64,000 nucleotides of DNA from Billgrantia antri (lineage in GTDB: Bacteria; Pseudomonadota; Gammaproteobacteria; Pseudomonadales; Halomonadaceae): NCBI RefSeq assembly GCF_019430905.1, contig NZ_JAHYCA010000001.1, forward strand, positions 233,095 to 297,094. Direction: 5' to 3'. The notes beneath the pieces were generated by a model. It was not told where the DNA came from and did not search any database. It saw only the letters and a program-made list of their open reading frames with translations. The position numbers and the translations under genes are program-made. This document shows positions 5,691 to 8,650 of this stretch, piece after piece (position 1 is the stretch's first letter; every line of letters starts with the position of its first letter).

Positions 5691-6956
5691 TCAGCGATAG
5701 ACCGGGAAGCGGGCGCAGACGGCCTCGACCTTGCCCTTCACCTCGGCTTCGATGGAGGCGCTATCGTCACCCTTGGCCATGGCGTCGAGGATGTCGCAGA
5801 TCCAGCCGGCCAGTTCGCGGCACTCGCCCTCGCCGAAGCCGCGGGTGGTTACCGCCGGGGTGCCGATGCGCAGGCCGGAGGTGACGAACGGGCTCTGCGG
5901 GTCGCCGGGCACGGCGTTCTTGTTGACGGTGATGTGAGCGCGACCCAGGGCGGCATCTGCATCCTTGCCGGTCAAGCCCTGCTTGATCAGCGAGAGCAGG
6001 AACAGGTGGTCTTCGGTGCCACCGGAAACCACGTCGTAGCCGCGCTCGATGAACACCCCGGCCATGGTCTGGGCGTTCTTCACCACCTGCTGCTGGTAGG
6101 CCTTGAACTCGGGCGCCATGGCCTCCTTGAAGCACACTGCCTTGGCGGCGATGACGTGCTCGAGCGGGCCGCCCTGGATGCCGGGGAAGACAGCGGACTG
6201 CAGCTTCTTCTCGATCTCGGCATCGTCTTCGGCAGAGAGAATCAGGCCACCGCGCGGGCCGCGCAGGGTCTTGTGGGTGGTAGTGGTCACCACGTGGGCA
6301 TGGGGAAGCGGGCTCGGGTAGATACCGGCGGCCACCAGGCCGGCAATGTGGGCCATGTCGACCAGCAGGTACGCTCCCACGTCATCGGCGATCTCGCGGA
6401 ACTTCGCCCAGTCGATGACCTGAGAGTAGGCAGAGAAGCCGGCGATGATCATCTTGGGCTGATGTTCGCGGGCCAGACGCGCCACTTCCTCGTAGTCGAT
6501 GCGCCCCGTGTCGTCGATGCCGTACTGCACGGCATTGTAGTGCTTGCCGGAGAAGTTGGGCTTGGCGCCGTGAGTCAGGTGACCACCCGCGTCGAGGCTC
6601 ATGCCCAACACGGTGTCGCCCGGCTTGACCAGCGCCTGGAATACGGCACCGTTGGCCTGGGAGCCGGAGTGGGGCTGAACGTTGGCGTAGGAGGCACCGA
6701 ACAGCTGCTTGGCATAGTCGATGGCCAGCTGCTCGACGATGTCGACGTACTCGCAGCCGCCGTAGTAGCGCTTGCCGGGGTAGCCTTCCGCATACTTGTT
6801 GGTCAACTGGCTGCCCTGGGCCTCCATCACCCGGGGGCTGGCGTAGTTCTCGGAGGCGATCAGCTCGATGTGTGCTTCCTGACGGGCGAGCTCTTTCTGC
6901 ATCGCATCGAACAGGGCGTCATCGAAACCGGCAATCGTCATGTCACGGCTGAACAT
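5691..6956 (-). CDS. glyA: Serine hydroxymethyltransferase
   Basis: PLP enzyme that interconverts serine and glycine and charges tetrahydrofolate with a one-carbon unit in the cytoplasm. Recognisable family blocks are the N-terminal [22 protein letters not shown], the QPHSGSQAN cofactor segment, [12 protein letters not shown] and the Schiff-base lysine in [14 protein letters not shown]. The chosen start ([11 protein letters not shown], 421 aa) matches the family length and has GAGG 10 bases upstream; in-frame codons seven residues earlier (GTG-ATG) lack a ribosome site. It is a single-gene unit with its own terminator. The upstream region holds an inverted repeat and a MITE-like element. Confidence 0.97.
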
Positions 6957-7010
6957 CGGCGGGAAACCTCGCATCACGGGGAGAATCGGGATGCGCCATG
7001 ATACCCCAGG

Positions 7011-7043
7011 CCATGACGGCTTTCACATGAAAGGCCGTCATGG
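7011..7043. promoter_or_regulatory. Inverted repeat upstream of glyA
   Basis: CCATGACGGC (7011-7020) pairs with GCCGTCATGG (7034-7043) around a loop containing the palindrome TTTCACATGAAA. It lies 54 bases before the glyA start and downstream of the gene ending at 7235. No T-run follows on either strand, so it could be an operator, an mRNA leader hairpin or a weak terminator. Confidence 0.5.
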
Positions 7044-7077
7044 CATCGTGCAGAAATTCTCATGCTGGGTTTAGTTA

Positions 7078-7234
7078 GGAAACGCTAGACAAATCGACGA
7101 GCGAGATGAAGCGCAAGGCGCACGGAGCACAAGAACCGGAACATATGGGGAATATGTGAGGATTCTGACCGGGCTGGCGCTCCAGCACCGCGCAACGCAG
7201 CGATTCGCTCGCGCAGGCATTTGTAAGTGTTTCC
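7078..7234. mobile_element. MITE-like palindromic element, 157 bp
   Basis: The block starts GGAAACGCTAGACAAAT and ends in the near-complement (reading inward from the right: GGAAACACTTACAAAT), giving imperfect 16-17-bp terminal inverted repeats. The trinucleotide TTA occurs directly on both sides (7075-7077 and 7235-7237), like a target duplication. A small central palindrome ACATATGGGGAATATGT lies inside. It has no coding capacity. The right-hand TTA is the complement of the TAA stop codon of the neighbouring gene. Only one copy was seen in this window; a genome-wide family is inferred from its structure. Confidence 0.65.
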
Positions 7235-8650
7235 TTAGCGTGTCTCGACCTTTACGTTGAGCTTGTCGACCACCCCCAGCGGATCGGTTTGGTAGCTGGC
7301 CACGCTGCTCTCGGCGGGCAGGTTTAAGCGAACTTCCAACTCCTCGGCGGAACCCTCCAGCAGTTCGACCAGCCCCAGCAAGACCGCTTGCGCCTCCGGG
7401 CCGAACATCATGCCGAGCCCCTGGGCCTGGGTGCGCGCCTGCTCGACGTACTGTGCCTCGGTCATCCCTTCCATGGCTGCACCCAGGGTTGCCAGACGAG
7501 CAAACAAGCCCGCGTCGGTGAGGCTCAGCCGCATGTCTCCCCCCAGCAAGGTCGCACGCTCCAGCCAGTCGGGGTCGGCGAAAGCATCGGCCGGCGTCAC
7601 CCCGGCCGGCAGTCGCACCGGCAGATTGACGTCGAACAGCAGACGCAACGCGTCCTGAACATCGATCTGGCTATCGCTGACCAGCACGCTGTGCTCGCCC
7701 TTCTCCTGCCAACTACCGAGAAGGGCGGCGTCGAGCCGTAGTTCGCCGCTGCCGTCGGTCAGCACGTTGCTAACCATGCGCAGCTGGGTACGCTCCTCTT
7801 CGGGCGCCAGCTCGATCATGCGCGCCAGATCGAGCTGAAGCCCCTCGAGGCGCATGCCGCCCTTGCCATCATTGAAATCACCATCGACGTCGAGCATGGC
7901 CAGGCTGCCGACCAGTTCGCTGGCATCGACGTCGAGATCGCGCAGCAGCAACGACGCCAGCGTTTCTTCACCTTCGGTATCGAGCCCGGTCAGTTCCTCG
8001 AGACGCAGCGAGGCCAGGGTGAAGGAGCCCGAGCCAATCTCGTCCAGATTTTCCGCCGCCCCCGCCACGCCGGTGATCTCGAGCATGCCGATGGCGTCGT
8101 GGGTCAGCGATTCGCCGCGCACCCGCTCGATGGTCATGCGCCCTTGGCCGTCCTGCAAGGGCGTGTCGAAGAAGAGTTCCTCGCCCAACTCCGAGGCCAG
8201 TTCGAGCACGATGCCGTCGATGGCCAGGCTGCCGAGACGTACCTCATCGGGAGCCAGTTCCGCATGCAGCGGGAAGACCGCGTGCGAAGGTTCTCCCAGC
8301 ACGATTCGCTCCGCACTCATCAGCGTCAGCTCGGTGAGGCTGTCCTCGATGCGCAATCCTTCCAGCGTCACCTCGTCGGGGGCGTCGTAGTCGCCGCTGA
8401 CGATATAGCGATCGATCACCAGACGCTCGCCCTCCTCGGCCTCGAAGACGATCTCCTCGGCGGTCACACGGGATCGCAGCATCCCGCTCGAAACCTCGCC
8501 CAGCGAGAGGTTGCCGCCTGCGCCGAACAGCGCCCGCAGGTCGGCCTCGAGCCGCTCTGCATCGGCGGCTACGGTAGTACTGCCGCCCATGAGCGCCACG
8601 CAGGTCAGCAACTGGCCCAGGCGAGTCACCGAGGAGTTAAAGGCTTGCAT
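7235..8650 (-). CDS. Exported protein of unknown function
   Basis: The 471-residue product is not recognised. The start at 8650 is chosen because AGGAGGTG lies 8 bases before it; a longer in-frame extension has no ribosome site. An N-terminal signal peptide ends about residue 27 (GGSTTVAADA). The remainder is acidic and rich in short alternating leucine/valine strands (e.g. VTLEGLRIEDSLTELTL, LRLEELTGLDTEG), suggesting a long beta-sheet or solenoid fold facing the periplasm, somewhat like AsmA/YdgA-type proteins, though no diagnostic motif supports that assignment. It ends exactly at the border of the 157-bp repeat element. A 13-bp palindrome lies 60 bases upstream. It is downstream of ybbP but separated by 154 bp. 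Confidence 0.75.
   Translation of the reverse strand: MQAFNSSVTRLGQLLTCVALMGGSTTVAADAERLEADLRALFGAGGNLSLGEVSSGMLRSRVTAEEIVFEAEEGERLVIDRYIVSGDYDAPDEVTLEGLRIEDSLTELTLMSAERIVLGEPSHAVFPLHAELAPDEVRLGSLAIDGIVLELASELGEELFFDTPLQDGQGRMTIERVRGESLTHDAIGMLEITGVAGAAENLDEIGSGSFTLASLRLEELTGLDTEGEETLASLLLRDLDVDASELVGSLAMLDVDGDFNDGKGGMRLEGLQLDLARMIELAPEEERTQLRMVSNVLTDGSGELRLDAALLGSWQEKGEHSVLVSDSQIDVQDALRLLFDVNLPVRLPAGVTPADAFADPDWLERATLLGGDMRLSLTDAGLFARLATLGAAMEGMTEAQYVEQARTQAQGLGMMFGPEAQAVLLGLVELLEGSAEELEVRLNLPAESSVASYQTDPLGVVDKLNVKVETR

Follow-up and report, generated by a model that had tools for sequence, protein, structure and literature searches.

The 64,000-nucleotide stretch of Billgrantia antri DNA analysed here (the window, whose numbering is used throughout) carries, between glyA and a gene for a 471-residue protein, a 157-bp block with inverted ends whose right flank holds the stop codon of the neighbouring gene. 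What is this block, how did it come to lie directly at a stop codon, and has it altered either of the genes beside it? A preliminary description, based on the letters alone, had taken it for a small non-autonomous element with TTA direct flanks, which might have trimmed or re-ended the adjacent gene and whose left end approached the upstream region of glyA.

The element and its ends

The features of the locus are the following:

5691..6956, minus strand: glyA (serine hydroxymethyltransferase), which follows the element when the minus strand is read
7075..7078, no strand: left target duplication, TTA at 7075-7077, or TTAG, which then shares the element's first G
7078..7234, plus strand: MITE of 157 bp (7079-7234 with TTAG as the duplication), from its copies and inverted ends
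7078..7094, plus strand: left terminal inverted repeat, 15/17 to the family pattern GGAARCRCTGMACAAAT
7108..7187, plus strand: conserved structured core, the sole match of model R1 in the 64-kb window (30.4 bits, E 5.8e-6)
7142..7156, plus strand: inner hairpin CATAT-GGGGA-ATATG (CCTAT/ATAGG, TTTAC/GTAAA and TGTAC/GTACA in other copies)
7173..7186, plus strand: hairpin GCTGG-CGCT-CCAGC, within a stretch of about 16 bp missing from the 142-bp copies (70/128)
7218..7234, minus strand: right terminal inverted repeat, 12/17 ungapped, one base short, adjoining the stop codon
7235..7238, no strand: right target duplication TTAG, whose TTA (7235-7237) gives the minus-strand gene its TAA stop
7235..8650, minus strand: neighbouring gene of 471 aa, with its stop codon inside the duplication and no Pfam or NCBIfam match

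By sequence inspection, the element (7078-7234) carries GGAAACGCT at 7078-7086 and AGTGTTTCC at 7226-7234, and its plus orientation is defined by GAAGCGCAAGG near the left end. The 10-nt terminal arms (7077-7086 and 7226-7235) are 90% complementary, and the element folds better than 200 of 200 dinucleotide shuffles on both strands (z -3.6 and -3.9). The TTA flanks described earlier are present at 7075-7077 and 7235-7237. The ends of this copy are imperfect and its duplication length is ambiguous, both a 3-bp and a 4-bp parse being compatible with it; because 4 bp is the duplication length of the family, the duplication is better read as TTAG (7075-7078 and 7235-7238), with a left end that then starts with GAAAC.

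Copies in the genome and genus

A search of the genome and its relatives, as the preliminary description had proposed, revealed that the element is not a single copy. BLAST found 20 pieces of it, spread over 15 places of its own genome; 48 of 60 same-genus relatives also have matches, as against 0 of 36 genomes belonging to the order's other families. An exact 34-base pattern of the element occurs at 40 loci in GTDB contigs, every one with a Billgrantia or Halomonas title, in a search from which records close to the window's own genome were possibly excluded. No match to the window element was found in a search of plasmids and phages.

For the family counts, copies were required to have both ends (at least 28/34 in total and at least 13 each) and a length of 120-175, an end threshold that excludes the window copy with its end score of 27. 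After orthologous insertions had been collapsed, 98 + 55 = 153 copies were reduced to 88 (set 1) and 40 (set 2), that is, 128; both sets consist of copies among the matches listed, and set 2, which was fetched later, was picked by an intact right end. Complete copies are 142-144 bp long in 89/128 cases and 157-159 bp in 28/128, and the longer form, to which the window copy belongs, has the extra hairpin. Besides these, there are micro-elements consisting of scarcely more than two ends, including two of 59 bp in the window's own genome (G000, C1:308052-308110 and C5:162939-162997) and one of 30 bp (L084:1695-1724, G040), as well as a nested MITE, L083:170-459 (G116:C3, 209769-210058), which encloses an inner MITE (L083:239-381) of the same end type.

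Target duplication and autonomous partners

An exact 4-bp duplication flanks 54 of the 128 independent listed copies, against a mean of 7.2 and a maximum of 17 over 2000 shuffled pairings; duplications of 3 bp were found in 4 (shuffled 4.6) and of 5 bp in 1 (shuffled 0.2). The flanks are YTAR in the first 98 copies, and YTAR is printed as the IS5 target duplication in PMC10359306.

Autonomous partners were sought by pattern, as ends without the MITE interior behind them, and matches were obtained in 19 of 90 genomes. Insertion sequences (IS) of 1225-1230 bp in L066, L067, L079 and L159 carry GGAAACGCTGCAYAAAT at one end and a sequence of the GGAAYCRCTGAWYAAWT kind at the other, with flanks CTAG/CTAG in L066 and TTAG/TTAG in L079; in the IS of L158 and L160 the first end (GGAAACGCTGCAYAAAT) is present and the second has diverged further. 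The transposase of L066 belongs to NF033581 (IS5 family, E 2.2e-94). A relative on a Halopseudomonas plasmid has a GGAAACGCTGCACAAAT end and TTAG/TTAG flanks, and the plasmid relatives L418 to L422 share the same kind of ends, four of the five with YTAR duplications and L422 with CTCG. In the 12 contigs of the window's own genome, profile searches found no NF033581 or PF01609 transposase, and the end search returned no convincing IS-sized pair, the one 1.77-kb pair on C5 (partner with 3 mismatches) being at noise level. Since the NF033581 cut-off is passed by only 3 of the 23 genomes searched, own included (G008, G044 and G102), the transposase partner is mostly absent today. Autonomous partners with the ends of the MITE have been identified elsewhere in the genus and not in the window's own genome.

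The block is short and repeated, has no transposase gene, and possesses inverted ends, a target duplication and an autonomous transposon with the same ends; the empty sites discussed below are a sign of insertion or loss and do not identify the enzyme. The reading as a small non-autonomous element was borne out, and the window element is very probably an IS5-type MITE that moved as follows. An IS5-family transposase of the NF033581 group, not found in the genome today, would have acted in trans on the 17-bp ends and joined the element into a CTAA site that served the upstream gene as its stop codon. Through the duplication, a stop codon would have remained on the gene side, with the protein unchanged.

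The neighbouring gene and the upstream region of glyA

As had been described, the right flank supplies the TAA of the minus-strand 471-aa gene, namely the complement of 7235-7237 (the start codon at 8650 is our choice). A homologue of this gene is present in 85/90 genus genomes, and the alignments of most full-length homologues reach residues 468-471 of 471; at the 30 best loci, the window's own among them, glyA lies next to the homologue in 27. No element occupies the site in the four closest relatives (G058, G042, G115 and G030, with proteins 83-88% identical). Their empty sites read GAGAC(A/C)CG CTAA ACCC and their proteins end in KVETR followed by TAA, while the filled site of the window reads CGCTAA, the element, and then TAACTAAACCC. 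Because the empty-site relatives share both the KVETR end and the TAA, the stop codon is the target's own, which was duplicated. The TAA does sit in the flank of the element, from which it had been supposed that the insertion trimmed or re-ended the gene; given an identical end in the empty-site relatives and the reach of most full-length homologues, such trimming is extremely improbable. The gene is intact and its protein unchanged. Since YTAR always holds a TAR stop triplet, which is kept by the duplication, dense genomes may be populated in this way without gene damage.

In G097 and G102 the orthologous gene likewise has an element of the family at its stop codon, oriented as in the window, and G008 has a decayed one there; the corresponding proteins are 70-75% identical to that of the window. 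These elements represent either repeated insertions or one old insertion with losses. In the G097 element behind the orthologous gene (L138), a stretch with short hairpins (CCTTCGGCTTCTCGCCCCTTCGGGG...) is found within the MITE core. The region upstream of glyA has been repeatedly occupied, as two other MITE types are found in the same intergenic region, one in G009 (L141:1345-1486) and one in G028 (L146:1341-1480).

On the other side of the element, the left end does come near the upstream region of glyA; 121 bp remain up to the glyA ATG (6956), and they hold the upstream region that is common to relatives. A structured block at this position could be taken for a conserved leader or regulatory element of glyA. 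However, conservation at this locus in every relative was not observed, the four closest relatives being without the block; moreover, the element occupies 15 places in the genome, and the palindrome and TATCAT that relatives share upstream of glyA lie outside it. The chance that it is a glyA leader is next to nil, and the empty sites led us to reject this reading together with gene trimming.

The palindrome at 7010-7044 is near-perfect, with 14-bp arms that are 93% complementary. It carries TTTCATGTGAAA on the glyA strand, is followed by TATCAT, and is kept with variation where relatives have glyA next; it is a candidate operator or terminator.

A structured core between different ends

When the family consensus was aligned with the G028 element, the score was 61, compared with a mean of 23.7 and a maximum of 39 among 500 dinucleotide shuffles; the reversed G009 element scored 46 (shuffles: mean 23.2, maximum 40), and in both cases the ends differ. 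Used as a query, the G028 element has matches in 45 of 274 class genomes, own included, and in 39 of 222 genera, many of the matching rows being limited to about its positions 33-110. The structure model R1 was built from 28 aligned cores recovered with this same-genus query, none of them from the window's family of bacteria; the alignment excludes two of 30 loci, namely L349 from the window's own genome and L353, which nearly duplicates L354. Among the 23 predicted pairs, 16 changed on both sides. Pairing reached 94.5% of cells (shuffled 80.6, slid 35-45) and covariation 0.442 versus 0.169, figures that are favoured because the structure was derived from the same alignment.

Within the window's MITE family, R1 gave a match at 25 of 28 loci, two of these matches being partial; at the 6 genus IS loci it gave none. 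Genome-wide, with 150 of 444 candidates scored in the window's own genome, it identified 11 further cores at other places, and the window copy and its family were not among the cores found; therefore, the R1 match, which is unique in the 64-kb window, is weak at genome scale. Across the phylum, R1 matches were found in 105 of 398 genomes, own included, and 45 of 212 genera (E up to 1e-4, strict filters). The ends of the class-wide core copies are of several types, such as CAGGCTGTTGAAAAA, TCCTRCTGTGWCACAAAG and GGAGCCTCTGATTAATTC. An exact 4-bp repeat lies at the boundary in 20 of 40 of these copies, in a boundary search that rewards such repeats; persuasive boundaries, with CTAG or TTAG and at least 12/14 matching end bases, number 7 of 40, and one copy has 13/14 matching end bases yet GTGC.

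The core outlasts its ends, whether the ends were swapped or diverged along with the transposases. The folded core, not seen in the autonomous elements tested, is common to MITEs with other ends across the phylum; ends would follow the transposase that is available, and the core would be retained, perhaps for some action of the folded strand, although complementary arms can persist without selection on the fold. That a folded DNA or RNA module, phylum-wide, rides as the core of many MITE families, between IS5-type ends that differ from lineage to lineage, and is selected as a folded strand is a possibility that we put forward tentatively.

Rfam searches gave no family at gathering score, with sub-threshold matches only and these outside the cores. 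A printed name for the core was found neither in Rfam nor among the papers listed by literature text searches with core strings, each of which holds the shortest string only, or with GTAAATGAG and "repeat", and a search with GGAAGCGCTG and "insertion sequence" returned an unrelated match only. The repeats R178 and R200 of P. fluorescens SBW25 are presumably worth considering as possible counterparts.

Placement at stop codons

With genes called by a codon model trained on the window, a boundary of the element lies directly behind a stop codon in 28 of the 88 copies of set 1, compared with 21 native stops among 190 control YTAR sites outside genes (Fisher 6.7e-5). Taken by itself, the proportion in set 2 (7/40) is not above the control (p 0.29), and that of both sets is 35/128 (p 2.7e-4).

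This placement appears to have a polarity. Boundaries on a stop codon (distance 0) belong to the right end in 30 cases and to the left end in 7, and for single-sided cases the counts are 28 versus 5 (p 6.6e-5; set 1 22:4, p 5e-4; set 2 6:1, p 0.125). When an end faces the 3' end of a gene, it lies at most 2 bp from the stop in 44 of 60 cases if it is the right end and in 10 of 54 if it is the left. A test that is free of gene calling, using ORFs of at least 100 codons that end on the boundary, gave 42 right versus 15 left ends (p 4.6e-4), or 32:8 in set 1 and 10:7 in set 2 (p 0.63). Replication in the 40 copies of set 2 thus has the same direction and is not significant, and the polarity, strong in the first 88 copies and weakly repeated in the second 40, is likely and leans on set 1.

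Farther from the stop, at 11-150 bp, the preference is inverted (left 35 versus right 10), and ORFs ending 5-40 bp before the boundary number 32 at the left end and 22 at the right. Among 22 co-directional copies at 11-150 bp from the stop, the right end lies 17-42 bp ahead of the next gene in 16. All three frames are open right-end-first across the entire element in 56/128 copies, compared with 1/128 on the other strand and 0/128 after shuffling.

Such a polarity could arise if the MITE had been domesticated as a 3'-end element, a reading compatible with its origin as a MITE: depending on its orientation, the transcribed element would affect the mRNA through cleavage, protection or termination, and right-end-first copies behind stops would be selected. 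The excess of right ends on stop codons, the ORF test and the covarying core point in this direction, as do the orientation-dependent effects of ERIC, as in Yersinia (excerpts of PMC2229807 and PMC3049150). However, set 2 alone is weak, the polarity is not clearly stronger in older copies (young versus old, no significant difference, Fisher p 0.32), and a terminator would be harmful where the next gene begins at most 56 bp away, as it does in 10 of the 21 co-directional copies whose right end coincides with the stop. Inspection by eye found neither a promoter at the right end nor a Rho-type terminator on the right-end-first strand. On balance, we regard domestication as improbable.

Alternatively, the transposase may favour the right end toward coding DNA, which would make the polarity a property of integration and leave the element otherwise inert. 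The right end is indeed the one closer to coding sequence in 84 copies versus 37 for the left (2 ties; in 5 copies no gene was called on one of the sides), and the flanks differ slightly in G+C (0.63 versus 0.58 at 5-14 bp, p 0.03). Against this, YTAR is symmetric, no strong asymmetric flank motif is present outside stops, and the proximity counts are 60:22 in set 1 and 24:15 (p 0.20) in set 2 alone. Such an asymmetry of the target site seems rather doubtful, though it deserves consideration. If the folded module proposed above is under selection, it could also explain why copies park directly at gene ends in one polarity.

Comparison with known systems

ERIC, BOX, RUP and Correia elements resemble the MITE in being intergenic, 100-200 bp long and the source of structured transcripts, and differ from it in sequence, hosts and partner transposases (excerpts of PMC2229807, PMC3049150 and PMC10969869). 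According to the same excerpts, 36 BOX copies supply a gene's stop codon and the evidence for truncation is not strong; one core common to families with different ends is not mentioned there for any of the four. ERIC is a 127-bp repeat with TA at its ends (table of PMC2229807). Membership of the window element in ERIC was rejected on length, ends and duplication.

Other close likenesses are found among IS5-type elements. MITEPsy1 of Pseudomonas syringae, whose movement has been demonstrated, has ends GGAAGGTCTGAAAAAGCC, the designation "IS5?" and, like the window's MITE family, a 4-nt duplication (CTAG or YTAA); it is 100 bp long and its ends, on which rather than on the interior the comparison was made, are related to but different from those of the window MITE (excerpts of PMC3189936). 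ISPsy19, of the IS5 family, has the printed end GAGGGTGTAGACAAAAT and a 3-nt duplication (excerpts of PMC3189936), both of which resemble those of the core-bearing G028 element; it is autonomous, and its end type is unlike that of the window element. The G028 element (L146) has ends GAGGGTGTTTACAAAA, 14/16 to ISPsy19, with TAA/TAA flanks. The NF033581 IS5-family IS (L066, L159 and L418) share the 17-bp end kind and the YTAR duplication with the window MITE, whereas they are autonomous and about 1.23 kb long, and the six genus IS loci tested have no R1 match. MITEs are usually viewed as internally deleted copies of one transposon (introduction of PMC3189936). The MITE of the window is itself ordinary; what is unusual is that elements with different ends share a covarying core and, with less certainty, that copies are parked at stop codons in one polarity. 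Since one covarying core occurs between several ends and none of the autonomous elements tested contains it, the purpose of a MITE interior becomes directly testable.
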